The position numbers and the translations under genes were made by a program. From Kineosporia mesophila (GTDB lineage Bacteria > Actinomycetota > Actinomycetes > Actinomycetales > Kineosporiaceae): 64,000 bases of DNA. The stretch is from positions 124,001 to 188,000 of the forward strand of contig NZ_JAJOMA010000003.1 of the NCBI RefSeq assembly GCF_021129235.1. The letters are read 5' to 3'. Below are positions 617 to 23,797 of this stretch, piece after piece; position 1 is the first letter of the stretch, and the number at the start of each line of letters is the position of its first letter. A model generated the notes under the pieces. It searched no databases, was not told the DNA's origin, and saw only the letters and a program-made list of their open reading frames with translations.

Positions 617-684
617 TCCGATGGACGGGCCTGTGACCATGGCCATCATCACGATGTGAACGCTTGATTACGGTACGCCCCGTT

Positions 685-1902
685 ATGAGACTGAACTCCA
701 TGCCGAGCCCGGAGCGTGTCGCCCACATCGCACCACTGGCCTTCGACGGGGAACGGTTCTGGCCCGACGGCGCGACCGTACTCACCGAGGGTGCCTCGAT
801 CGTCAGTGTCAGTGCTGGTCAGGGGCCCGCTCCCGAGGGTTTCGAGGTGCGGCGGCACGACCGTGGAACGCTGCTGCCGGGGCTCATCGACACGCATGTG
901 CACCTGATCGCGGACGGGCGGGACGGGGCTCTGGGGCGGGACGTGCACCGGTCCCCCGAGGAACGGGAACAGGTGGTGCGGGCGTCGTTGCTCGCCCAGG
1001 CCCGGGCCGGGGTGACGACCGTGCGGGACCTCGGCGACAACCGCTGGTCGGTGCTGGAGCGGGTCTCGTCGCCCGGCGAACCGGCGGTGGTGGCGTCGGG
1101 GCCTCCGATCACGACACCGGGTGGGCACTGCGCGGCGATGGGTGGAGAGGCCGCCGGGGCTGCGGAACTGGCCGCGGCGGTGGACGAGCGGGCGGAACGA
1201 GGAGCGCCCCTGGTGAAAATCGTCGTCAGTGGTGGCGCGATGACGCCGGGGTCGGATCTGCTGTCGTTGCAGTACTCCGCCGAGGACCTCGCCCTGGTGG
1301 TGGAACGGGCTGCCCGTCATGGTCTTCCGGTGGTCGCCCACGCGCACTCGCTGGATGCCGTGAATCTCTGCATCGACACCGGGGTGCGGGGTATCGAGCA
1401 CTGCACCTGCCTGACGACGAACGGGGTTCAGACCCCGCCCGATCTGGCGAACCGGCTGCGGGACCGAGGGATTCACATCGGGCCGACGTTCGGGCGGATC
1501 CCGGGCAGCCGGCCCTCGGCGCAGGCGCAGGAAGTCACGCAACGCACCGGCCTGGTGCCCGCCCACCGGTTCGTCCAGGTCGAGAAGCTTCACCGGCAGG
1601 GCGTTGCGGTGATCAGCGGATCCGATGCGGGGATCCACTCCGCGAAACCGCACGGCATCGTGGCGTATGCCGTGGCCGAACTGGTGGGGGCCGGGATCGC
1701 CACGGACGACGCGATCGCCACGGCCACCTCGGTGTCGGCGCAGGCCTGCGGCCTGGGATCCACGAAGGGACGCCTGCGGCCGGGTACCGACGCCGACCTC
1801 CTGGTCGTCGACGGCGATCCCCGGGCCGACATCGCCGCGCTGACCAGGGTTGGCACCGTGGTCGTGCGCGGGACGACGATTACGGGCGACGCAGGACGAT
1901 GA
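685..1902 (+). CDS. metal-dependent amidohydrolase family protein
   Basis: 405 residues from ATG 685 (a TTG at 664 would add seven residues; an ATG at 700 is also possible). It is a TIM-barrel amidohydrolase of the imidazolonepropionase/prolidase-like group. Metal-binding features are visible in order: GLIDTHVHL (HxH), VKIVVSGGAM (lysine expected to be carboxylated), VVAHAHS, GIEHCTC and SGSDAGIHS with the catalytic Asp. The C-terminal strand set LRPGTDADLLVVDGDP closes the composite beta-sandwich typical of the superfamily. Substrate cannot be read from sequence; cyclic amides, imides or Xaa-Pro-like peptides are usual. The 3' end overlaps the 3' end of the convergent nicotianamine synthase gene by 23 bases. 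Confidence 0.9.
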   Translation: MRLNSMPSPERVAHIAPLAFDGERFWPDGATVLTEGASIVSVSAGQGPAPEGFEVRRHDRGTLLPGLIDTHVHLIADGRDGALGRDVHRSPEEREQVVRASLLAQARAGVTTVRDLGDNRWSVLERVSSPGEPAVVASGPPITTPGGHCAAMGGEAAGAAELAAAVDERAERGAPLVKIVVSGGAMTPGSDLLSLQYSAEDLALVVERAARHGLPVVAHAHSLDAVNLCIDTGVRGIEHCTCLTTNGVQTPPDLANRLRDRGIHIGPTFGRIPGSRPSAQAQEVTQRTGLVPAHRFVQVEKLHRQGVAVISGSDAGIHSAKPHGIVAYAVAELVGAGIATDDAIATATSVSAQACGLGSTKGRLRPGTDADLLVVDGDPRADIAALTRVGTVVVRGTTITGDAGR

Positions 1903-2767
1903 CCGAATTGATGACGTCGTTGAGTGGGTGGAGCACCCCGAGCCGCTCCCATCCGCCCAGCTCGTGGGTGCCCACGGCCGGGTAGAGCAGCCGTCTCAGC
2001 CCGGCCGCACTGCGCACCAGCAGTACCGCACCAGGACCCAGCCGTTGCCGGAGCGAGGCCAGGATGGCGTTCTTGGCCTCCGGCTCCAGGCCGGCCAGGG
2101 CTCCGAGCACCACCACGTCGGCGTCCGCCACCTGCTCGAACTCAGCCGCCTCGGCCCGGTGGAACCGCACGGCACCCGGGCCGATCAGCGCGTTCACGCA
2201 GGCGGATCCCAAGGCGACGGCCTCGGTGGACCGATCCACGACGTCCACCGGTACCCCGAGCTCTTCGTGCAGGCAGAGGGCACTGAGCGGGAGCGGCCCC
2301 GCGCCGAGGAAGCAGATGCGCCGGGCCTTTCCGGGCTCCACGCCGAAACAGCGCAGCAGGTTGATCTCCAGCCGGGTCAGTTCCCGGTAGTTGCCGATGT
2401 ACGGGAACTGCTCGAGCACCTCCCGCGGCCGGCCGGCCGCGGCGATACGACGTGACCAGTGGGTCTCCATCAGGTACTCGCCCTCGGCGCACAGCTCGTG
2501 CAGGCCGGCCAGGCGGGAGACGATGCGCTCGTCACCCAGCACCCGGGCCGCCCTCGGCGACAGGTCGCCGCCGTCGTCACCGCACAGTTCGACCAGCTCG
2601 GTGAAGAGCCGATCGACCCTGGTGGACGGGGCCAGCCCCGGTTGCCCCCGCAGGCTTTCGTAGATGGTGGCCACGCGGTCAGCGAGTTGCTCGGCGTAGG
2701 CCTGGTCGACCGAACGATCGTCCAGGAGAACGAGATCACCAGCCACTGCCGGTCCTTCGCGCCGCAT
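1880..2767 (-). CDS. nicotianamine synthase
   Basis: 295 residues; ATG 2767 shares one base with the stop of the preceding acetyltransferase gene. The protein follows plant nicotianamine synthase along its length: VDRLFTELVELC (51-62), CAEGEYLMETH (93-103), FPYIGNYRELTRLE (121-134), the SAM-binding FLGAGPLPLSAL (153-164), DVVVLGALAGL (217-227), APG-type loop and LRS/LYP block (244-263), and HPLNDVINSVIVLRR (280-294), the counterpart of the plant HPTDDVVNSVVIAR tail. Nicotianamine synthases condense aminocarboxypropyl groups of S-adenosylmethionine; bacterial relatives (CntL) make the core of staphylopine and pseudopaline metallophores. No opine dehydrogenase gene is nearby, so the product is more likely nicotianamine-like than an opine. 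Family assignment is strong; exact product is inference. Confidence 0.93.
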   Translation of the reverse strand: MRREGPAVAGDLVLLDDRSVDQAYAEQLADRVATIYESLRGQPGLAPSTRVDRLFTELVELCGDDGGDLSPRAARVLGDERIVSRLAGLHELCAEGEYLMETHWSRRIAAAGRPREVLEQFPYIGNYRELTRLEINLLRCFGVEPGKARRICFLGAGPLPLSALCLHEELGVPVDVVDRSTEAVALGSACVNALIGPGAVRFHRAEAAEFEQVADADVVVLGALAGLEPEAKNAILASLRQRLGPGAVLLVRSAAGLRRLLYPAVGTHELGGWERLGVLHPLNDVINSVIVLRRP

Positions 2768-3336
2768 CACCGCTGTTCTGCCCCCTTGCCCGGTCGCCCG
2801 GCGATCTTCGGCAGGTCGATCTCGAAGTGCACGGTGTTGAACGGGTCGGGTCTTGCGTCGTGGACCTCGACGGTCGGCATCGAGCGCCAGAACGCCTCCG
2901 CACCGGGCACTCCCGCGTCCGTGTGCAGGTAGACCGTGTCGTACCCGGCCACCTCGGTGGCCCAGGCGGACGCCTCGGCCACCAGCCGCCGGGCCAGCCC
3001 CCGACGGCGCGCCTGCGGGCGCACCCAGACCCGCACGAGCTGGCAGGTCTCCGGGCCGTTGTAGCGGGCTGCGAGCCATTCCGGGTTGGGCGGCGACACC
3101 AGATGACAGGGACGGACAGCGGTCGTCGCGAGTACGCGTCCCTCATTCTCGCCGTGCTCGACCGCGACGAACAGCGCGGCCCGGGGCGCCTGGAGATAGG
3201 TCACCGCCAGGTCGTCGATGTCGCGGTGCCAGCGCTCCTGGTAGCCACCCATGTCGCGATCAAGCACCTCACGCATGCACGCCGCCGCGCCGGCCAGGTC
3301 CGCGGGCCCTGCCGCCCGGATCTTCACCTCACCCAT
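2767..3336 (-). CDS. GNAT acetyltransferase in operon with nicotianamine synthase
   Basis: 189 residues. The acetyl-CoA binding motif A is clear: LVRVWVRPQARRRGLARRLV, around residues 99-118, with the R-R-x-G-x-A pyrophosphate loop, followed by helix and the VYLHTDAG strand. The last base of its stop is the first base of the nicotianamine synthase ATG, so the two are made from one transcript. This tight coupling suggests that the enzyme acylates the NAS product or its precursor, or exports/protects it by modification; this is inference. It is the first gene behind the Fur/Zur-like box at 3419-3433. An unrelated housekeeping N-acetyltransferase remains possible. Confidence 0.85.
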   Translation of the reverse strand: MGEVKIRAAGPADLAGAAACMREVLDRDMGGYQERWHRDIDDLAVTYLQAPRAALFVAVEHGENEGRVLATTAVRPCHLVSPPNPEWLAARYNGPETCQLVRVWVRPQARRRGLARRLVAEASAWATEVAGYDTVYLHTDAGVPGAEAFWRSMPTVEVHDARPDPFNTVHFEIDLPKIAGRPGKGAEQR

Positions 3337-3418
3337 GATCTTGCCGTCCCCCGTCGAATGTCAGTGCCGTCGGTCTCTTGTCGGGCGCCTGCCCGCCGGA
3401 AGACCATAGCGGATAATT

Positions 3419-3433
3419 TGATAATGACTCTCA
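3419..3433 (-). promoter_or_regulatory. candidate Fur/Zur-family operator
   Basis: TGATAATGACTCTCA reads as an imperfect 7-1-7 inverted repeat. By my count it matches 12 of 15 positions of the actinobacterial Zur consensus as I recall it (TGAAAATGATTTTCA), and 12 of 14 of the Fur 7-1-7 core. It stands in an AT-rich patch, unusual for this DNA, 83 bases upstream of the acetyltransferase start and 20 bases past the LysR gene stop, where the promoter of the GNAT-NAS operon must lie. This would give metal-starvation control of the operon. Confidence 0.55.
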
Positions 3434-3453: not shown

Positions 3454-4380
3454 TCAGAGTGACGGGTCGAAAACCTCGGCATGGTCGGCGAAGACGGAGA
3501 CACACCGGTCACGCACATGCCGGACGGCCGGGCTGGCGGACATCGAGTCCCGCCAGATCATCTCGATCACCCGGGTCGGGGCCGGACCCGAGACCGGCAC
3601 CGCGATCACCCCGTCGGGCAATGCCCCACGACCCAGGCGGGGCACCAGGGCCACCGCGACCCCTTCCTGCACCAGCCGCAACTGCGAGGCGAACTCGAAC
3701 GACCAGAACCGGACCGAGGGCGGACGGGCGAAACCGGTGAACATGTAGAGGAACCAGCCGTGGCAGATCGTGCCGACCGGGGTCGAGGCCCAGGGCTCGT
3801 CGACCAGGTCGGCGGGCGTGACCATCTCCGCCCCGGCCAGCGGATGGTCGCGGTGCACGAGCAGATCGGCGGTGTCGAAGCCGACGAGCTGCGCGGCGAC
3901 GTACTCCGGACGGTGCAGCGGCACGCCCACCCAGTGGTGCACGAGCCCGATGTCGGCCTGCCCGGCGGCCACGGCGTCGAGCGCCTCGAAAGGGTCGCGC
4001 TCGAACAGCTCCGGCACGAGCGCCGGGCTGGTCCGGGCCAGGTCGGCCAGCAGGGGTGCCACCAGGCCACGTACGGCCGTGGAGAACGCGACGATCCGTA
4101 GCGGCCCCGACGGTTCGCCCTGGTCGGCGCTGAGGCCCGCGGTCGCGGCCTCGACCCGGCGCAGGATCCCCTGCCCGTGCTTGACCAGCGTGCGCCCCTG
4201 TTCGGTCAGCACGACGCCTCGCCCGACCCGCTCCAGCAGGACCGCCCCGAGGTCTTTCTCCAGCCGTTTGATCTGCTGCGACACCGCGGACGGGGTGTAT
4301 CCGCCGGAACTCGCGGCGGCCGCGACCGTGCCGTGCACGTCGACGGCGATCAGGGATCGCAGGGCCACCAGATCCATCAT
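3454..4380 (-). CDS. LysR family transcriptional regulator
   Basis: 308 residues. The N-terminal winged helix-turn-helix is typical: a first helix beginning MMDLVALRSLIAV, then GGYTPSAVSQQIKRLEKDLG (recognition helix) and GVVLTEQG at residues 59-66. Residues 95-300 form the two-lobed effector-binding domain (GPLRIVAFSTAVRGLVAPLL, GQADIGLVHH, VALVPRLG). It is transcribed away from the EamA gene at 4453, from a shared 72-base region that holds a perfect 8-base inverted repeat. LysR proteins usually activate the divergent gene in response to a small ligand, so the EamA transporter is the likely target. Ligand unknown. Confidence 0.92.
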   Translation of the reverse strand: MMDLVALRSLIAVDVHGTVAAAASSGGYTPSAVSQQIKRLEKDLGAVLLERVGRGVVLTEQGRTLVKHGQGILRRVEAATAGLSADQGEPSGPLRIVAFSTAVRGLVAPLLADLARTSPALVPELFERDPFEALDAVAAGQADIGLVHHWVGVPLHRPEYVAAQLVGFDTADLLVHRDHPLAGAEMVTPADLVDEPWASTPVGTICHGWFLYMFTGFARPPSVRFWSFEFASQLRLVQEGVAVALVPRLGRGALPDGVIAVPVSGPAPTRVIEMIWRDSMSASPAVRHVRDRCVSVFADHAEVFDPSL

Positions 4381-4452: not shown

Positions 4453-5391
4453 GTGACCACTCGCGACTCGTTCCTGGCTGTCCTGGTGACAGTGATCTGG
4501 GGCATGAACTTCGTCGTCATCGACGAGGGACTGGCCGGATTCCCGCCTCTACTGTTCGTCGCCCTGCGGTTCGTCGTGGTGCTGCTCCCCGCGTTGTTCC
4601 TCCTGCCCCGCCCGGATGTTCCCTGGCCCACCCTGCTGCTGGTCGGCACCTTTCTCAGCCTGGGCCAGTTCACCTTCCTCTACCTGTCGCTGGACGCGGG
4701 TATGCCGGCCGGGCTCGCCAGCCTGGTGTTGCAGGCCCAGGTGGTCGGGACCGTGGTGATCGCGGCCGGGGTGCTGGGTGAACGTCCTGGTCTCAAAGCC
4801 CTGATCGGGGTGATGCTGGGGGCGATCGGGCTCGTCGTCGTGGCGGTCGGCCGATCCGCCGAGACGCCTCTGCCCGGCCTGGCCCTGGCCGTCTGCGCGG
4901 CGTTGAGCTGGTCGTGCGGCAACGTGCTGAGCCGCCGGGCCGCGGTGAAGTCAGGGCTGGCGATGACGGTGTGGTCGGCGATCGTGGTGCCCGTCCCCCT
5001 GGCCCTGCTCTCCCTGCTGATCGACGGGCCGGCCGAGGTGGGCCACGCGCTCACCCACATCACGCTCGGCAACGTGATGTCGACGCTGTACACCGCCGTG
5101 CTCGCCTCGCTGGTCGGATACGGCATCTGGAACACGCTGCTGGCCAGGTACGCCGCCGCCCAGGTGGTGCCGTTCACCCTGCTGGTGCCGGTGGTCGGGC
5201 TGATCACCGCCTGGCTGGTGCAACACGAGCAGCCGGGCCCGTTCGAACTGCTGGGCGGGCTGGTGCTCCTGCTGGGAGTAGCCGTGACGGCCATCCGCCG
5301 TCCGGGTATACCCCGGCCCGTCGCTGTCCGCCCGGAGGATGACGCCGGTACTCAGGTACCGCCGAATTCGGCCCACGGGGTGACGCTTTGA
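4453..5391 (+). CDS. EamA (drug/metabolite transporter) family permease
   Basis: 312 residues from GTG 4453 (VTTRDSFLAVLV). Ten predicted membrane helices in two EamA repeats; the first begins with FLAVLVTVIWGMNFVVIDEG, the second with LPGLALAVCAALSWSCGNVL, both with the conserved Trp-Gly/Cys-x-Asn element. DMT permeases of this type export amino acids, small metabolites or metallophores. It is divergent from the LysR regulator, its probable controller. The position 1.1 kb from the nicotianamine synthase operon recalls CntI, an EamA protein that exports pseudopaline in Pseudomonas, but LysR/EamA pairs are very common, so the link is a hypothesis. Confidence 0.9.
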   Translation: MTTRDSFLAVLVTVIWGMNFVVIDEGLAGFPPLLFVALRFVVVLLPALFLLPRPDVPWPTLLLVGTFLSLGQFTFLYLSLDAGMPAGLASLVLQAQVVGTVVIAAGVLGERPGLKALIGVMLGAIGLVVVAVGRSAETPLPGLALAVCAALSWSCGNVLSRRAAVKSGLAMTVWSAIVVPVPLALLSLLIDGPAEVGHALTHITLGNVMSTLYTAVLASLVGYGIWNTLLARYAAAQVVPFTLLVPVVGLITAWLVQHEQPGPFELLGGLVLLLGVAVTAIRRPGIPRPVAVRPEDDAGTQVPPNSAHGVTL

Positions 5392-6270: not shown

Positions 6271-9200
6271 TCATCGACGCCTCAGGCTGCCCTCCTCCAG
6301 ATTTCCGTTCTCCATGCTTGCTTCTCCGAGACTTCCGTTCTCCAGGTGCAGCACGGCGTCCATCGCGTCGAGACCCTCCGCCCGATGAGTGACCAGCAGC
6401 ACGGATTTCCCGGAGGAGGCGTCGAGCAGGTCGGTGAGCACGGCCTGCGCGGTCTCGGTGTCCAGGCTCTCGGCGGGTTCGTCGAGCACCAGCACCGGCC
6501 GGTCCGCCAGCAGGGCGCGGGCCAGGGCCAGCCGGCGACGTTCACCGGCGGACATCGTGGCACCCCGCTCCCCCAGCCAGGTGTCGAGTCCGCCCGGCGT
6601 GGCGTTGAACCAGTTCCCCAGCCGGGCCCGGGTCAGCACGACACGCAGTTCACCATCGCTCGCCGTGGGTTTCGCCAGTTTCAGGTTCTCCCGCAGGGTG
6701 CTCGCGAAGACGTGGTCGTCGTCCGGGACCAGTCCGACGCTCTCCCGCACCCGGTCACCCGCGAGGGTCCGGTAATCCCGGCCGGCCAGGCTGACCTGAC
6801 CTTCCCGGGGGTCGAGGAACTTCAGGACGAGACCCGCCATCGTCGACTTGCCACACCCGGACGGCCCCTGCACCGCGATCCGGCGCCCCGGGCGCACGGC
6901 CAGGTTCAGACCGTTCAGCACCGGAGCACCGGCCGGGTCCCAGCTCGCGACGACGGACTTCAGTTCGATGCCCGGACCGGCCGGAACCGGTTCCCCGACC
7001 GAAGAATCCGCGACCGCATCGACACTGGCCGCCGGAGTCTGGAGCACCTGGGCCAGACGGCGCCGGGCGACGTGTCCTCGGGTACGGGCGTTGACAGCGT
7101 CGGGCAGGGTCGCCGTGACGTCGGAGAGGGCCAGGGTGCCGAGCACGAGCACACCCACCTGCTGGAGGGTGAGTCCGGTGGATCCGGTGATGCCGGTGGT
7201 CACGAGCATGACCCCGGCCACGGCGAGGCCTGCGCCGCCTGTCCGCAGAAACTCGGCCAGGGCGTTGCGGCGCACCTGGACCCGGTCGGCCTCGGTGGCG
7301 TGGCGACCAGCCGCGCGTACCGGTTCGACGCCCGTCGACAGAATGCCGAGCGCCTTCACGTCCTCGCTCCCGGCCAGCACCTCGACCACGGTCTGCGAAT
7401 AGCCGGCCTTCGCCTCGGCCGTGCGCTCGGCCCGCCGATCGGCTCCCGCGCCCGCGACGACCGGTGCGACCACCCCGGCCAGCAGAAGCCCGGGCAGAGC
7501 CGCGAGCGCGGCGGTCCAGTCGATGATCGCGGCGACGAGCAGCGCCACGACCAGCGTGGCCGCGGCCACGGTCACCGGGCGGCGCCAGCGCAGCACGGTG
7601 TCACCGACCGCGTCGACGTCGTCCACCAGACGGGTCAGCAGGTCACCGCGCCGGGGCAGGGCCGGACCGGGCACCCGCGGAACGAGATCGGCGTAGACCC
7701 GGGCCCGCAGCCGGCCGAGATCGGCGAGCGCCACGTCGTGGGCCACGAGCCGGTCCAGATAACCGAGCAGAGGACGCGTGACGGCGAACAGCCGCACCCC
7801 CACCACCGCCACGGTGAGAGTCAGGATCGGTGGCTGCCCGGAGGCCTTCGTCAGCAGCCAGGCGGCGACTGCGGTGAGGGCCACACCGGACAACGACGAC
7901 AGCGTTCCCAGCACCACGGCCAGGTTCATCGAGGCGGTTCGCAGGCGGGCCGGGATCCAGCTGCGCGCGGGCCGGGCGTCGGCCCAGGCCCGGCCGAAGC
8001 CCGGTAGCACGGCGTCGTCCTGAAACTTCTGTGCCGGAGCGTCCGAGGAGGAACCTACGGGACTGTTGTTGCTCGAAGAAATTCCATTTCCTCCTTGCGA
8101 AAGCCTGTTATCGCCCCCGAATAAGGACGCCGGGGCGGCCAAGGACGCCGACTCCGCACGAGGGCGGGGAGACGGAACCAGACCCGGCAGACTCCCCCCG
8201 GCCCCGGCCGAACCCCCCTCGGGGACGCCCACCGGCGCGATCTCCTCCACCTGCGACCACACCACCGCCCGGTCGACCGGACTCACCACCCCGGACACAC
8301 CGGGAGCAGCCGACGAACCATCAGCAGCCACGTCCGTACCGGGCAGGGTCACCCGGGACGTGTTCCCCCACAGATGCGTCACCTCATCCGCCGCCGCGAT
8401 CGCCGCCGGGCGATGCGCAACCATCACGACCGCGGTACCGCCGTCGGCGCGACGACGAAGACCGGCCAGCACCTCCTGCTCGGTGACGTTGTCGAGGTGG
8501 GCGGTCGGCTCGTCGAGCAGCAGCACGGCGGCCCCCACCTGGACCTCGTGCGCAGCCGCGTGTACGTAGGTCCGGGCCAGCGCCAGACGCTGACGCTGGC
8601 CGGCGCTGAGATCACGTCCGTCCTCGGTGAGGGCCGTGTCGAGCCCGGCGGGCAGGGCATCGATCCAGTCCCGGGCCGCCGCATCCCGCAGGGCCGCCTC
8701 GACGACCTCACGAGGGGCCTGCGGCCAGGCCACCGTCACCGCCTCCCGCAGCGTGCGGGCCAGGGGAAAACTGGGACGCTGCGGAAGGTAGACCGGGTCG
8801 GCGCCGTTCACGAAGCCCGATTCCGGGGTCCGCTGCCGGGCGAGAACCCGGATCAGGGTGGTCTTCCCGGCCCCCGAGGGTCCCACGATCGCCGTGATCG
8901 ACCCCGCGAACACCCACAGTCCGACCCCCGACAGCACCGGCTCGGACCGCCCGGGCACCCGCACCGTGAGACCGTCGGCGACCAGCGCGACACCCGACGG
9001 GAGCGAAACTCCGGCAACGGGAACGACCGGGGCCCGAACATCGTCCACCAGTACCGAGGCCTCGTCGAGAACAGCCGCGGCATCGGCACTCTCGTGGAAC
9101 CGGGCCCCCAGCTCACGGACCGGGCGATAGGCCTCGGGAGCAACGAGGATGGCGACGAGCGCGGTACCCAGGCCCAGATCACCCGCCGCGACCCGCAGCC

Positions 9201-10017
9201 CGGCCTCGACCGCGACCAGACCCACGGACAGGGTCGCCACCAGGTCGAGCGCGGTGCCGGAGAGGAACGCGATACGCAGGACCCGCACGGTGGCCGCCCG
9301 GTGCCGCTCCCCCACCGCGGTGAGCACCTCGACCTGCCGGTCGGCCCGCCGGTAGGCCCGCAAGGTGACGAGACCCTGCACCACGTCGAGGAAATGGGAG
9401 GACAGCTTCGACATCAGCTGCCACTGCTGCACCGAGCGCCGCTCGGTCAGCCGGCCCACGAGCACGGCGAACAGCGGGATCAGGGGCAGGGTGACCACCA
9501 CGACGACGGCCGAGCGCGGGTCCAGCACCGCGAGGATCACGATCACCGCGGGCGGCAGCAGCACGGCGGGAATCACGGCGGGCAGGTACCGGGTGACGTA
9601 CTTCTCCAGCGAGTCGACACCGTTCGTGGCGAGCGCCGAGACCCGGCCCGGACCGGCGTCCGCCAGCTGGTCCGGGGACAGGCGCAGCGCCGAGCCGACG
9701 AGAGCGGCCCCGAGCGCGACCCGGGCCCGCCCGGCCGCCCGGGCGGTGAGCACCGGCTCGGCGAACCGCAGCGTGCTGCGCACGAGAGTGGCGGCCACGA
9801 AAGCGATCAGCGGAGGCCAGGGCGACGTCCCGGCCTCGACCACGGTGACCGCCCAGGCCGCGGCGACGAGCTGGCCGAGCAGCGCGAGGGCCCCGAGGGC
9901 GGCCAGCGCGCCGAGCCCGGCCGCGTCGCGGCGCAGGGTCGGGACGAGCCGGAAGACGCGGATGTCCACCGGGCCGCGGGGGCGCGGCACGACCGGAGCA
10001 GCCGGAGATGTACTCAT
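6271..10017 (-). CDS. cydDC: fused thiol ABC exporter CydDC
   Basis: 1248 residues: CydD and CydC in one polypeptide. Residues 1-560 are a CydD-like half (six membrane helices, Walker A GPSGAGKTTLI, signature DLSAGQRQRLALA, Walker B VLLLDEPTAHLD). Residues about 670-1240 are a CydC-like half (second membrane domain, GPSGCGKSTMAGLV, TMSAGERRRLALA, VLVLDEPAESLD). The complex exports glutathione/cysteine or haem-linked thiols and is needed to assemble cytochrome bd. A Ser/Asn/Gly-rich linker of about 100 residues, encoded around 8040-8230 with a locally AT-rich patch, joins the halves. The C-terminal tail holds short repeats of the type LENGSLGEASMENGNLEEGS. ATG 10017 overlaps the cydB stop (ATGA). 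Confidence 0.95.
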   Translation of the reverse strand: MSTSPAAPVVPRPRGPVDIRVFRLVPTLRRDAAGLGALAALGALALLGQLVAAAWAVTVVEAGTSPWPPLIAFVAATLVRSTLRFAEPVLTARAAGRARVALGAALVGSALRLSPDQLADAGPGRVSALATNGVDSLEKYVTRYLPAVIPAVLLPPAVIVILAVLDPRSAVVVVVTLPLIPLFAVLVGRLTERRSVQQWQLMSKLSSHFLDVVQGLVTLRAYRRADRQVEVLTAVGERHRAATVRVLRIAFLSGTALDLVATLSVGLVAVEAGLRVAAGDLGLGTALVAILVAPEAYRPVRELGARFHESADAAAVLDEASVLVDDVRAPVVPVAGVSLPSGVALVADGLTVRVPGRSEPVLSGVGLWVFAGSITAIVGPSGAGKTTLIRVLARQRTPESGFVNGADPVYLPQRPSFPLARTLREAVTVAWPQAPREVVEAALRDAAARDWIDALPAGLDTALTEDGRDLSAGQRQRLALARTYVHAAAHEVQVGAAVLLLDEPTAHLDNVTEQEVLAGLRRRADGGTAVVMVAHRPAAIAAADEVTHLWGNTSRVTLPGTDVAADGSSAAPGVSGVVSPVDRAVVWSQVEEIAPVGVPEGGSAGAGGSLPGLVPSPRPRAESASLAAPASLFGGDNRLSQGGNGISSSNNSPVGSSSDAPAQKFQDDAVLPGFGRAWADARPARSWIPARLRTASMNLAVVLGTLSSLSGVALTAVAAWLLTKASGQPPILTLTVAVVGVRLFAVTRPLLGYLDRLVAHDVALADLGRLRARVYADLVPRVPGPALPRRGDLLTRLVDDVDAVGDTVLRWRRPVTVAAATLVVALLVAAIIDWTAALAALPGLLLAGVVAPVVAGAGADRRAERTAEAKAGYSQTVVEVLAGSEDVKALGILSTGVEPVRAAGRHATEADRVQVRRNALAEFLRTGGAGLAVAGVMLVTTGITGSTGLTLQQVGVLVLGTLALSDVTATLPDAVNARTRGHVARRRLAQVLQTPAASVDAVADSSVGEPVPAGPGIELKSVVASWDPAGAPVLNGLNLAVRPGRRIAVQGPSGCGKSTMAGLVLKFLDPREGQVSLAGRDYRTLAGDRVRESVGLVPDDDHVFASTLRENLKLAKPTASDGELRVVLTRARLGNWFNATPGGLDTWLGERGATMSAGERRRLALARALLADRPVLVLDEPAESLDTETAQAVLTDLLDASSGKSVLLVTHRAEGLDAMDAVLHLENGSLGEASMENGNLEEGSLRRR

Positions 10018-11012
10018 GCCGTGGTCACCCGGGCGCTGCTGATGCGCTTGCGGAAGATCCAGTAGGAGAAGGCCTGGTAGATCACCACGGCGGGCATGAT
10101 GAACAGGGCGGCCCAGCTGATCAGCTCGAGCGAGAAGTCCGAGGTGACGGCGCTGTCCATGGTGATCGACCAGGTGGCGTCCAGCGTGCTGGGCACCAGG
10201 GTGGGCGCGTGCCAGGCCAGTCCGAGCACGGTGGCCAGGGCAATGGTGACCGCCCCGGCGGTGAAGGCCAGGCCCTCGCGGCGCAGCTGGGCTCCGGCCA
10301 CGGCCACGGCCGCCGGCACCACGAGCACGGCGACCACGAACTGACCGCTGAGGACCGCGACCGCGAGAGTTCCCACGGCCAGAACACTTCCGGTGCGCAC
10401 GGCCAGCCCGCGCGACCAGTCGCGCAGCGGGCCGGTGGTACGCAGCGACAGGAACAGCGCCCCGACCAGCAGGGCCGCCAGCACGGCACCGAGGGCACCG
10501 GCCGCGGCCTCCCAGGTGAGGAGCGGGTCGATGCTGCGGCTCCAGCCACCGCCCATCACCTCACCCTGCTCGTCGATCGCCAGGCCCCGGGCCAGCACCG
10601 CGACAACGGCGCCCCAGAGCGCGACGACCAGCAGGGATGACCAGGCCATGATCGCGTCGCAGCGGTCCTTCCAGCGTTCCTCGCCCTCGCCGTGGTACTT
10701 GCCACGGAACTCCAGGGCCACCCCCCGGGCCGCGAGCGCCAGCAGGATCAGCACCATCGGCAGGTAGAGGCTGGAGAGCACGGACGCGTACCAGTCCGGG
10801 AAGATCGCGAACATCAGGCCGATCGCGCCGACCAGCCACACCTCGTTGCCGTCCCAGGTGGGGGCGATGGTGCGGACGGCGGCGTCACGCTCGTGCAGGG
10901 GGCGACGGGCCAGGCCGGCGATCATGCCGACCCCGAAGTCGAAACCCTCGAGCACGAAGAAGAGCACCCAGGCGGCGATGATCACGCCGAACCAGATCAC
11001 GGGTAGATTCAT
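10014..11012 (-). CDS. cydB: cytochrome bd oxidase subunit II
   Basis: 332 residues from ATG 11012. The family start MNLPVIWFGVIIAAWVLFFVLEGFDFGVGMI is intact, including the EGFDFG motif, and PTWDGNEVWLVGAIGLMFAIFP follows near residue 55. About eight to nine membrane helices. CydB pairs with CydA to form the quinol-oxidising, oxygen-reducing high-affinity terminal oxidase in the cytoplasmic membrane. The gene lies 19 bases after cydA and overlaps cydDC by four bases, giving the operon cydA-cydB-cydDC. Confidence 0.97.
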   Translation of the reverse strand: MNLPVIWFGVIIAAWVLFFVLEGFDFGVGMIAGLARRPLHERDAAVRTIAPTWDGNEVWLVGAIGLMFAIFPDWYASVLSSLYLPMVLILLALAARGVALEFRGKYHGEGEERWKDRCDAIMAWSSLLVVALWGAVVAVLARGLAIDEQGEVMGGGWSRSIDPLLTWEAAAGALGAVLAALLVGALFLSLRTTGPLRDWSRGLAVRTGSVLAVGTLAVAVLSGQFVVAVLVVPAAVAVAGAQLRREGLAFTAGAVTIALATVLGLAWHAPTLVPSTLDATWSITMDSAVTSDFSLELISWAALFIMPAVVIYQAFSYWIFRKRISSARVTTA

Positions 11013-11031
11013 GAGAAGCCTTCTCCGGCAA

Positions 11032-12528
11032 TCAGTAAGTGAGGACGAGGCGCGCGTCGTCGCGGTCGGGACCGGTTTCGGTAGGGTCACCGTCGCTGTC
11101 GCCGTCACCATCGCTGTCGCCGTCGGAGGACGCCTCCGGCGCGTGGTGCTCCGTCTCCCCCGATCCCGGCCCGGAACGCACCAGGCGGCACATCAGGCGC
11201 ACCCAGACGACGGCGAGAATGCCGTAGACGACGGTGAATCCGACGATCGAGATGATCACCTCGGCCGCCGTGACGCCGGGGCTGACCCCCTGCTCGGTGC
11301 GGAACAGCCCGAAGGCGAGCCAGGGCTGGCGGGCGGTTTCGGTGAAGATCCAGCCGATCGCGTTGGCGGCCAGCGGCATCAGTCCGATGACCGCGGGGAC
11401 GAACACCACGACCGGGCGCAGGCGCGCATGGCGCAGGAAGGCGGGCAGGTCGCGGTCCCTGCGGGTGACGAACAGGTACAGCGCGGCCAGGGCGGCGGCG
11501 CTCATCCCGACGCCGATCATCAGCCGGAACGACCAGAACGCGACGGGCACCCAGGGCACGTAGTTGGCCTCGCCGAACTGCTGCGTGTACTGCGCCTGCA
11601 GGTCGTTGATGCCCTGGACGGTGCCGTGGAAGTCGTGCGTGACCAGGAAGGACAGCAGGCCGGGGATGTCGATCTGGATGGACGGCTCGGCCTCGCCCGG
11701 CCCGGCGTAGGAGAAGAGGGAGAAGGGGGCTCCGGTCGTGGTCGTGTAGAGGGCCTCGGCGGCCGCCATCTTCATCGGCTGCACCTCGGAGATGACCACG
11801 CCGAGCCGGTCACCGGTGATCGAGACGAGCGCGCCACCGACGACGACCACCCAGGCCCCGACCCGGCCGAGCACGCGCACGGCGGCGCGGTCGACACCGG
11901 GACGGCGCAGCTGGTTCCACAGCGAGATGGCCAGCAGCAGGGCACCACCGGTCATCAGGGCACCGGACGCGGCGTGCGGGTAGGCGGCCAGGTTCAGTTG
12001 GTTGAAGAGCAGGGACGAGAAGTCGTTCAGCTCGGCGCGGCCGGTCTGCGCATCGATGGAGTAGCCGATCGGGTTCTGCATGAACGAGTTGGCCGAGAGG
12101 ATGATGAACGCCGACAGCTGGGTGCCGATGGCGACGACCCAGATGGTGGCCAGGTGCAGGCCTTTCGGCAGGCGGTCCCAGCCGAAGAACCACAGGCCGA
12201 GGAAGGTCGCCTCCAGGAAGAAGGCCAGCATGCCCTCGATCGCCAGGGTCGGGCCGAACACGTCGCCGTAGAAGCGGGCGAAACTGCTCCAGGCCAGACC
12301 GAACTGGAACTCCTGCACCAGGCCGGTGACCACCCCGACGGCGAACGTGATGAGCAGCAGCTGGCCGCAGAGCACCGTGACCCGCTTCAGGTCGTCGCGG
12401 CGGGTGCGCAGCCAGGCGGTGTGGAATCCGGCGGTGAGCAGCGAGAGGCTCATCGACAGGGGCACGAACAGGTAGTGGTAGACCGTCGTCACCGCGAACT
12501 GGAGCCGGGCGAGATCTGTGACGTCCAC
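11032..12528 (-). CDS. cydA: cytochrome bd oxidase subunit I
   Basis: 498 residues from GTG 12528, preferred over GTG 12552 because AGAAGGG precedes it at proper spacing and the protein then starts VDVTDLARLQFA as in relatives. Haem b558/b595/d ligand regions are recognisable: LARLQFAVTTVYHYLFVPLS (His), GLVQEFQFGLAW, the Glu-rich helix EGMLAFFLEATFLGLWFFG, and GWIFTETARQPW in the C-terminal half. The Q-loop is short, as in Gram-positive enzymes. An unusual acidic tail (SDGDSDGDGDSDGD) follows the last helix. First gene of the operon; its promoter region contains a BlaI-type dyad at 12632-12656. Confidence 0.97.
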   Translation of the reverse strand: MDVTDLARLQFAVTTVYHYLFVPLSMSLSLLTAGFHTAWLRTRRDDLKRVTVLCGQLLLITFAVGVVTGLVQEFQFGLAWSSFARFYGDVFGPTLAIEGMLAFFLEATFLGLWFFGWDRLPKGLHLATIWVVAIGTQLSAFIILSANSFMQNPIGYSIDAQTGRAELNDFSSLLFNQLNLAAYPHAASGALMTGGALLLAISLWNQLRRPGVDRAAVRVLGRVGAWVVVVGGALVSITGDRLGVVISEVQPMKMAAAEALYTTTTGAPFSLFSYAGPGEAEPSIQIDIPGLLSFLVTHDFHGTVQGINDLQAQYTQQFGEANYVPWVPVAFWSFRLMIGVGMSAAALAALYLFVTRRDRDLPAFLRHARLRPVVVFVPAVIGLMPLAANAIGWIFTETARQPWLAFGLFRTEQGVSPGVTAAEVIISIVGFTVVYGILAVVWVRLMCRLVRSGPGSGETEHHAPEASSDGDSDGDGDSDGDPTETGPDRDDARLVLTY

Positions 12529-12631
12529 GGGGCTGACCCTTCTGAGTTCCACCCGCCGGCACGCACCTGCACGGGGACCTGTGGCGAAGTGGTTCGGGAC
12601 GATGAACCCTACGGCCCATCTACGACAGAGT

Positions 12632-22837: not shown

Positions 22838-23797
22838 GTGACCCGCCGCACCCCCCTGATCGCCCGCCTCACCGGGGCGGGCCTCCTGGCCCTCACCACC
22901 CTGACGGCCTGCGGCGGGCCGGCGCCCGAACTGGTCGCGGCGCCCGGGATCCAGCCCACGGACTGCGGCACCGTGACACTCGCCGAGAACCCCTGGGTCG
23001 GGTACTCGGCCAACCTCGCCGTCGTCAGTTACCTCGCGCGCACCGAGCTGGGCTGTGAGGTCAAGGTGAGTGCCGAGGCGGAGGACGCGTCCTGGCAGCA
23101 CCTGGCCGACGGCAGCGTGGACGCGATCCTGGAGAACTGGGGCCACGACGATCTGAAGAAGAAGTACATCGACAACGAGAAGGTCGCCGTCGAGGCCGGG
23201 CTGACCGGCAACAAGGGCGTGATCGGCTGGTACGTGCCGGAGTGGATGGCGCAGAAGTACCCCGACATCACCAACTGGAAGAACCTGAACGAGTACGCCC
23301 ACCTGTTCGACGGCAAGTTCCTCGACGGTGACCCCAGCTACGTCACCAACGACAAGGCCCTGATCGAGAACCTCGGGATCGACCTCACCGTCGCCTACAC
23401 CGGCAGCGAGGACAAGCTGATCTCGGCGTTCCGGAAGGCCGAGGCCGACCGCACCCCGATGATCGGCTACTTCTACTCGCCGCAGTGGCTGCTGTCGGAG
23501 ATCGACCTCGTCAACATCAAGCTCCCCGCCTACACCCCGGGCTGCGACGCCGACCCGAAGACCGTGCGCTGCGACTACCAGCCCTACGACCTGGACAAGA
23601 TCCAGAATCGGGAATTCGCCTATTCGGGCAGTCCGGCCGCCGAACTGATCCAGAAGTTCCAGTGGAGCAATGATGATCAGAATCAGGTCGCACGCGATCT
23701 GAACGACGGGATGAAGCCCGACGAGGCCGCCCGGAAATGGCTGGACGCCCATCAGGATAAATGGCGTGCGTGGCTTCCTTCCGGCGTCGCCGGTTGA
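22838..23797 (+). CDS. glycine betaine/choline-type substrate-binding lipoprotein
   Basis: 319 residues from GTG 22838 with GAGGAGA in front. Signal peptide with lipobox LTAC, Cys25 being the lipidation site, so the protein is anchored to the outer face of the membrane. The rest is an OpuAC-type domain: CGTVTLAENPWVGYSANLAVVSYLA, DGSVDAILENWGHDD, PMIGYFYSPQWLL, LNDGMKPDEAARKWLDAH. Quaternary amine-binding aromatic residues (W, Y) are plentiful. No permease or ATPase gene is adjacent, so it is an orphan binding protein, 63 bases after the conservon. It may supply an existing importer or act as a sensor partner of the conservon kinase; the latter is speculation. Confidence 0.9.
   Translation: MTRRTPLIARLTGAGLLALTTLTACGGPAPELVAAPGIQPTDCGTVTLAENPWVGYSANLAVVSYLARTELGCEVKVSAEAEDASWQHLADGSVDAILENWGHDDLKKKYIDNEKVAVEAGLTGNKGVIGWYVPEWMAQKYPDITNWKNLNEYAHLFDGKFLDGDPSYVTNDKALIENLGIDLTVAYTGSEDKLISAFRKAEADRTPMIGYFYSPQWLLSEIDLVNIKLPAYTPGCDADPKTVRCDYQPYDLDKIQNREFAYSGSPAAELIQKFQWSNDDQNQVARDLNDGMKPDEAARKWLDAHQDKWRAWLPSGVAG

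Follow-up and report, generated by a model that had tools for sequence, protein, structure and literature searches.

A nicotianamine synthase gene coupled to an acetyltransferase gene behind a conserved Zur-type box in Kineosporia mesophila: a possible opine-free zinc-ligand system

Results

The operon and its products

The window analysed here, a stretch of 64,000 nucleotides of the soil actinobacterium Kineosporia mesophila (contig NZ_JAJOMA010000003.1), contains two overlapping minus-strand genes behind a box of the zinc-regulator type. The first of the pair is a GNAT N-acetyltransferase gene (positions 2767-3336, 189 amino acids), followed by a nicotianamine synthase (NAS) gene (1880-2767, 295 amino acids, with its ATG at 2767 and its stop codon at 1880-1882). 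The 15-bp box TGATAATGACTCTCA, of 7-1-7 layout (3419-3433, exact match), stands 82 bases from the GNAT ATG, and 10 bases downstream of it lies a TATSGT element (TATGGT here, 3403-3408, minus strand), which is a candidate -10 hexamer. A preliminary description of this DNA had proposed a synthase with three characteristic blocks, an acetyltransferase gene overlapping it by one base and a box about 83 bases upstream of the operon start. All three are borne out, the first by the PF03059 match and the presence of the blocks, the second by the PF00583 match and by the single base that the GNAT stop and the NAS start have in common (TGATG).

The synthase matches PF03059 with 176.2 bits against a cut-off of 27.1, covering profile positions 5-271 of 276; the 7.78-Mb assembly contains no second NAS match. 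FPYIGNY, FLGAGPLPL (the block of the S-adenosylmethionine, or SAM, site) and HPLNDVINSV are all present. An AlphaFold model of mean predicted local distance difference test score (pLDDT) 91.2, searched with Foldseek, gave the archaeal Methanothermobacter enzyme MtNAS (3fpe) as top match, with a TM-score normalised to the query (TMq) of 0.78, and MtNAS chains at 0.78-0.81; MtNAS is the nearest solved relative by sequence as by fold. E101 aligns with E81 of MtNAS, the residue altered in the MtNAS E81Q entries, and is invariant in 15 of 15 aligned proteins, the modelled protein thus having the NAS fold with a predicted SAM site and catalytic glutamate. In profile comparison the E value was 3e-35 to MtNAS versus 2.5e-9 to CntL, an order that the fold repeats, and by both measures the protein is closer to archaeal NAS than to CntL. 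Its earlier label as plant-like holds at the level of the family, PF03059, only, in a comparison that included no plant sequence. NAS chemistry is very likely for this protein; the length of the product cannot be read from sequence.

The acetyltransferase matches PF00583 with 46.6 bits, and its model (pLDDT 93.0) has a confident GNAT fold, whose Foldseek neighbours are GNAT structures at TMq values of about 0.5-0.7. Its sequence gave weak matches only in the PDB (best E 0.019). GNAT enzymes carry the coenzyme A motif R/Q-x-x-G-x-G/A, which is satisfied by RRRGLA in this protein, and the family match, the predicted fold and the motif together assign it to the acetyltransferases. The fold neighbours include tabtoxin-resistance, putative phosphinothricin and spermidine acetyltransferases, as well as protein acetyltransferases, and they would be compatible with a small amine or amino-acid substrate, naming none.

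The box and the zinc regulon of the host

Within the genus, GTGAATGAGAGTCATTATCA is conserved in all six members amid an otherwise diverged spacer upstream of the operon, with the exception of one base in G003, and TATSGT stands at the fixed distance of 10 bases from the box in six of six. This element may belong to the promoter, and the conserved Zur-type box would then lie close to it. The host box satisfies 10 of the 11 fixed positions of the Streptomyces coelicolor Zur motif, tGaNNatSatNNtCa, derived from chromatin immunoprecipitation (as given in the available part of PMC5472717). With at most one mismatch, that motif was found three times in the 64-kb window, compared with 0.14 expected from shuffling, the two other sites being at 1214-1228 (inside an amidohydrolase gene) and at 23671-23685.

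In the host genome the exact box occurs once, and 36 further sites were found at two or three mismatches, as compared to 11 for a reversed control pattern. Twelve of the 36 were inspected by eye, and five of these lie near zinc-linked or zincophore-type genes. One precedes ZnuA and its ABC partners (L105), one lies in the interval between the divergent genes of CobW and ribosomal L28 (L104/L075), one is at the 5′ end of YibE/F (L103), one precedes an SBP_bac_5 importer (L102), and one is part of a cluster with nonribosomal peptide synthetase (NRPS), AMP-ligase, chorismate-binding and Irp3-like genes (L101). Model matches confirmed the identities of ZnuA, CobW, L28 and YibE/F. The last two sites belong to one region (G000, contig C4, about 1500-30000), a coelibactin/yersiniabactin-like cluster with two zero-mismatch Zur-type boxes and an Opp-type importer, its label "coelibactin-like" being based on the Irp3-like, NRPS and chorismate-binding matches and not on comparison with coelibactin genes.

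The available part of a review (PMC6103462) describes control by Zur for genes of these kinds in actinobacteria. Since similar boxes precede zinc genes in the same genome, and given the published Zur motif, zinc rather than iron is the likely signal. The box had been called Fur/Zur-like in the preliminary description, which was right as to a metal-regulator box and can be narrowed to Zur over Fur, iron control being disfavoured by that same company. Zur control of the operon is well supported by these sequence patterns. Of the four FUR-family genes of the host, the best candidate for Zur is flanked by a UppS-type gene and a class II tRNA synthetase gene, a neighbourhood that we take to be the position of zur in actinobacteria, and it is preceded by a box with two mismatches.

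A Zur matrix was built from the five host sites described above; since these had been picked out by their resemblance to the NAS box, the independent part of the evidence is the company that they keep. Over 52 upstream regions, p was at most 0.007 in 30 and above it in 22 (the floor of these values being 1/301). Gene starts in relatives were set by script, which placed the start of L185 upstream of its box, so that the box was missed; L162 and L205 were left out because their upstream sequence was too short.

Conservation and partners of the synthase

A contig scan with the single host protein as query found no relative, and a profile scan yielded 50 named NAS loci. NAS has a GNAT gene directly upstream in six of six genus members (G000 to G005), with a one- or four-base overlap in five of them at script-chosen starts, and in seven of the 50 named loci, those of two Kineosporia, Pseudosporangium, Jidongwangia, a Dactylosporangium metagenome-assembled genome (MAG), Millisia and an Actinomycetota MAG. 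Together with four further genus members these make 11 GNAT-NAS loci, distributed over Kineosporia (six genomes), Micromonosporaceae (three), Gordoniaceae (one) and one MAG of the window's own family. Chance pairing was rejected in view of this recurrence in several families. The conservation of pair and box in relatives, on which the earlier proposal depended, was found within the genus in six of six members, one base of the box differing in G003; the pair extends to the 11 loci, with the box weaker outside the genus.

Other loci place different genes beside NAS. An ATP-grasp ligase gene lies directly downstream in 15 of the 50 (13 Jiangellaceae, one MAG in their clade, and Pyxidicoccus), an arrangement of NAS followed by an ATP-grasp L-amino-acid ligase that is seen at L054 (8549-10685), at 13 similar loci and at L198. 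The one Jiangellaceae ATP-grasp protein scanned has an L-amino-acid ligase C-terminal domain, and the pairing suggests an aminoacylated nicotianamine. The 14 loci of the Jiangellaceae clade carry an upstream site, TGAACATGAGTCTCA or TGAACATGAATCTCA. The myxobacterial synthases (Sorangium and Pyxidicoccus; L160, L165, L169, L175 and L198) have no strong upstream Zur-like site.

An OppDF-MFS-OppBC set, of importer and major facilitator superfamily (MFS) genes, is next to NAS in five of the 50 (L193, L199, L200, L203 and L206), divergent in four and on the far side in L203. Boxes with zero or one mismatch lie between NAS and this set in four Nocardiopsis-type relatives, with zero in L199 and L200. 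No opine dehydrogenase match was found in G336 (L206), the only one of the five genomes of this type in the class draw described below. Three loci have yibE/F near NAS (L163, L170 and L205), beside it in all three, with cobW in two of them and a Zur-like site that overlaps the predicted start of yibE/F, and 20 of the 50 have none of these four kinds of neighbour.

In the NAS tree, which was made without the fragment L205, partner types cluster strongly and the ATP-grasp pairing appears at two separate places. The GNAT-paired synthases do not form one clade, and the yibE/F lineage falls among them. The GNAT tree, made without the fragment L162, unites the 10 tested NAS-paired GNATs (the host's and nine others) in one clade with support 97/99; the GNATs of a transporter group, described in the next section, are adjacent to it in the drawn tree with the weaker support of 84 to 86.

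The acetyltransferase family beyond the synthase

Draws of 394 genomes of the class were scanned for NAS, GNAT, PF10100 and the amidohydrolase, and are taken as the same genomes; the GNAT scan scored at most eight candidates per genome. GNAT and NAS occur together in G000, G044 and G267, on different contigs in the last. In G044, NAS stands beside a GNAT of the same family, with a whole importer/MFS cluster elsewhere in the genome.

A strict bond of this GNAT to NAS is ruled out, since it also occurs without NAS. The NAS-less carriers include 12 genomes of one genus (f37/g59, 5.8 to 11 Mb). In 11 of the 12, by tblastn, GNAT comes first and is followed by matches to SBP_bac_5 and a fused OppBC, with an MFS match in nine of these 11 (Pfam having been run on examples from three of them); in one of them, OppBC and MFS are 46% and 52% identical to those by NAS in the Nocardiopsis group. 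A Zur-like site (p at most 0.017) was found in nine of the 11 operons, before GNAT in five and between GNAT and the binding protein in four, and no strong one in L145 and L150. In the twelfth genome (L148), GNAT and an ATP-grasp ligase gene point away from each other. The other GNAT carriers tested (L137 to L139, L141, L148, L153 to L156 and L049) gave no strong Zur-like site. The presence of NAS-less GNATs in importer operons indicates that acetylation may serve the use or recycling of a ligand as well as its synthesis.

G296 has a box, an ATP-grasp ligase, an MFS protein, a methyltransferase-like protein, SBP_bac_5, OppBC, OppDF and GNAT in line (L221, 7191-18001, with L139), and its CntM match is on another contig. 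That genome is the only one of the 394 with a PF10100 (CntM) match, and it is not among the NAS-positive genomes. PF10100 gave no match in the host or in 58 relatives, in a scan whose controls were silent too, the same model matching G296 in the class draw. The absence of an opine dehydrogenase, which had been held to set this locus apart from cnt loci, agrees with the lack of a match in the host.

Neighbouring genes

Convergent with the operon is an amidohydrolase gene of the Xaa-Pro dipeptidase/imidazolonepropionase type (664-1902, plus strand; PF01979, 112.6 bits), whose nearest solved relative is 3be7 (E 3.6e-27) and whose best NCBIfam model is Xaa-Pro dipeptidase, below its cut-off. All 11 GNAT-NAS loci have an amidohydrolase gene in the neighbourhood of the pair, at about 3 kb from NAS in G004 and with just the gene end on the contig in L171. 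Genomes that lack a GNAT-NAS locus can encode related amidohydrolases (up to 49%) as well. Synteny suggests a functional link of this gene to the pair; a Zur box of its own was rejected, there being no conserved upstream site in the genus.

Upstream of the operon lie a LysR regulator gene (3454-4380, minus strand) and, divergent from it, an EamA exporter gene (4453-5391, plus strand; PF00892, with an O-acetylserine exporter model match under the cut-off), which might export the ligand. EamA is the only importer or exporter gene near the pair in the host. LysR, EamA, a second GNAT and the amidohydrolase are kept in six of six genus members; no LysR or EamA match was found beside the pair in L159, L176 and L190. 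Both genes are neighbours in the genus only and were rejected as members of the system. Further along, at 6271-12552 (minus strand), the window encodes cytochrome bd oxidase subunits I and II, then a protein of 1248 amino acids that combines two ABC transporter halves in the manner of a fused CydDC.

Discussion

The identities and the coupling of the two genes, the conserved box with its Zur-regulon company and the linkage of the two families point to a Zur-controlled, opine-free, nicotianamine-type zinc ligand that is acetylated by the GNAT, a reading to which we give a probability of about 0.5. In zinc shortage, Zur would come off its box next to the promoter, allowing the joint production of GNAT and NAS from a two-gene operon that Zur otherwise represses. 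NAS would then use the aminobutyrate units of SAM to build nicotianamine or a closely related compound, which would serve as the zinc ligand with no opine dehydrogenase step, and the GNAT would acetylate an amino group of this ligand. That the GNAT acts on what NAS makes would be the simplest way to understand a pair that is kept over several families. Finally, the ligand would most likely be exported and retrieved, or recycled, for zinc, because the same GNAT and NAS families occur with Opp-type importers and MFS exporters in relatives. The acylated nicotianamine-type metallophore proposed in the preliminary description is thus a reasonable suggestion on sequence grounds.

Several observations weigh against this reading. 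No NCBIfam model identifies the best candidate of the host as Zur, the Zur model scoring 51 versus a cut-off of 167 and a Fur model higher, 71.5 versus 220, and seven of the 12 box-like genome sites inspected by eye have no zinc-linked neighbour. In the matrix scan, all 10 Promicromonospora and all four Sorangium NAS genes lack a strong Zur-like site, and at GNAT-NAS loci outside the genus the box is weaker (p of 0.007 in L176, 0.013 in L190, 0.02 in L159 and 0.33 in L171). The genome-level co-occurrence is also weak, with the GNAT family in 21 of the 394 genomes, NAS in 23 and both in three. As for transport, no match to the Nocardiopsis-type MFS was found in the host at E 1e-8, and the Opp binding protein behind a Zur box in the host (contig C4) stands with the coelibactin-like cluster; it is closely matched in G001, G002 and G005, but G004 offers only a 34% counterpart and G003 no match, and these two genomes keep GNAT-NAS all the same. 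For these reasons that importer was rejected as the uptake system.

The doubts concern in part what NAS makes. With MtNAS nearest in fold and profile, and thermonicotianamine named in the title of its structure entry, NAS might make a shorter or different ligand, with one or two aminobutyrate units added to a different amino acid, in the manner of CntL and MtNAS. The strong PF03059 match speaks for nicotianamine itself, though a family match alone leaves the product unsettled, and this somewhat unlikely variant would be compatible with the acetylated zinc ligand preferred here. A different doubt is whether the GNAT acts on that product at all. The weak co-occurrence, together with the 43 of 50 named NAS loci without a GNAT of this family directly upstream, would suit an enzyme for an unrelated substrate (a protein, an amino acid or an antibiotic) that merely shares zinc control with NAS; the single, well-supported clade of NAS-paired GNATs, the one- or four-base overlaps in the genus and the Opp-type transporters that also accompany the sister clade make this improbable.

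Other alternatives concern the fate of the ligand. Nicotianamine could stay intracellular, as it does in plants, and buffer or chaperone zinc there, leaving scavenging to the coelibactin-like cluster. That the host has this second zincophore-like cluster with two Zur-type boxes, that the GNAT-NAS pair has no constant exporter or importer from one genus to the next, and that another lineage of the family has NAS by yibE/F and cobW and not by such transporters would all fit; we nevertheless consider it quite unlikely, with an importer and exporter set beside NAS in five of the 50 named loci and EamA near the pair throughout the genus. In a further scenario, unlikely too, the GNAT would acetylate the zinc ligand on its return, so that one coordinating amine is lost and zinc is freed, the acetyl-ligand then being expelled or deacetylated by the amidohydrolase. 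In the NAS-less genus a relative of the GNAT goes with uptake and efflux, heading the SBP-OppBC operons (11 of 12 genomes, nine with MFS), its fold neighbours include small-amine and amino-acid acetyltransferases, and the amidohydrolase is near the pair at every one of the 11 loci. Yet the host GNAT shares its operon with NAS and has no importer nearby, the GNAT of G296 stands in line with an ATP-grasp ligase, which would fit tailoring as well, and protein acetyltransferases are also among the fold neighbours.

Should the GNAT be such an acetyl switch, it would answer the question of how chelates of this kind give up zinc inside the cell. It could then belong, in a speculative and on balance unlikely reading, to a modular, opine-free, Zur-controlled family of nicotianamine-type zincophores, consisting of NAS, a swappable partner (GNAT, ATP-grasp or none) and Opp/MFS transport, with the GNAT as the switch that unlocks zinc. 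In any case, the locus and its mix-and-match relatives point to a little-studied family of zinc-ligand systems, with acetyl- and aminoacyl-nicotianamine as candidate products. At the sequence level they connect NAS with zinc starvation, with one transporter set and with two types of enzyme that may tailor the ligand.

NAS in actinobacteria was already known, as the available part of PMC12454661 indicates, which gives the enzyme no role in these bacteria. CntM-based zincophore loci in actinobacteria are known as well, some zincophore loci carrying acetyltransferases of unclear role (PMC7438024, from the part available). NAS occurs in 23 of the 394 genomes versus one with CntM, and surveys anchored on CntM, such as that of PMC7438024, would therefore miss these loci by design. 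No publication on a Zur-NAS-GNAT locus was found in the open literature, most subscription papers lying outside the search, and none was found on acetylated nicotianamine or joining zincophore, actinomycete and ATP-grasp.

Comparison with known systems

Among systems already described, the zincophore ethylenediaminedisuccinic acid (EDDS) is made by chemistry other than the NAS type, and coelibactin differs by its NRPS chemistry. Both are Zur-controlled actinomycete zincophores according to the available part of PMC6103462, like the present operon with its Zur-type control, and a coelibactin-like cluster is found in the same host. The plant and fungal nicotianamine synthases share the PF03059 family, and the tree in PMC10248798, from the part available, places bacterial NAS proteins apart from them. 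The NAS of Methanothermobacter (3fpe, 3fpg) is alike in fold, SAM block and catalytic glutamate, but its identity in the fold alignment is 22-23%, and the host enzyme has a GNAT partner and a Zur-type box. The pseudopaline and yersinopine loci resemble the locus of this genus in an EamA exporter near the synthase, whereas CntM is lacking here and EamA was not seen by the pair outside the genus. Finally, the staphylopine and bacillopaline cnt loci (CntK-CntL-CntM with an Opp importer and an MFS exporter, an anatomy taken from the available part of PMC7438024) have in common with the present ones an aminobutyrate transferase of the NAS superfamily and, in the Nocardiopsis-type relatives, the same kinds of transporter, Opp and MFS; unlike them, the loci described here are without CntM, have a NAS that is not of the CntL type, and carry a GNAT or an ATP-grasp gene beside it instead.

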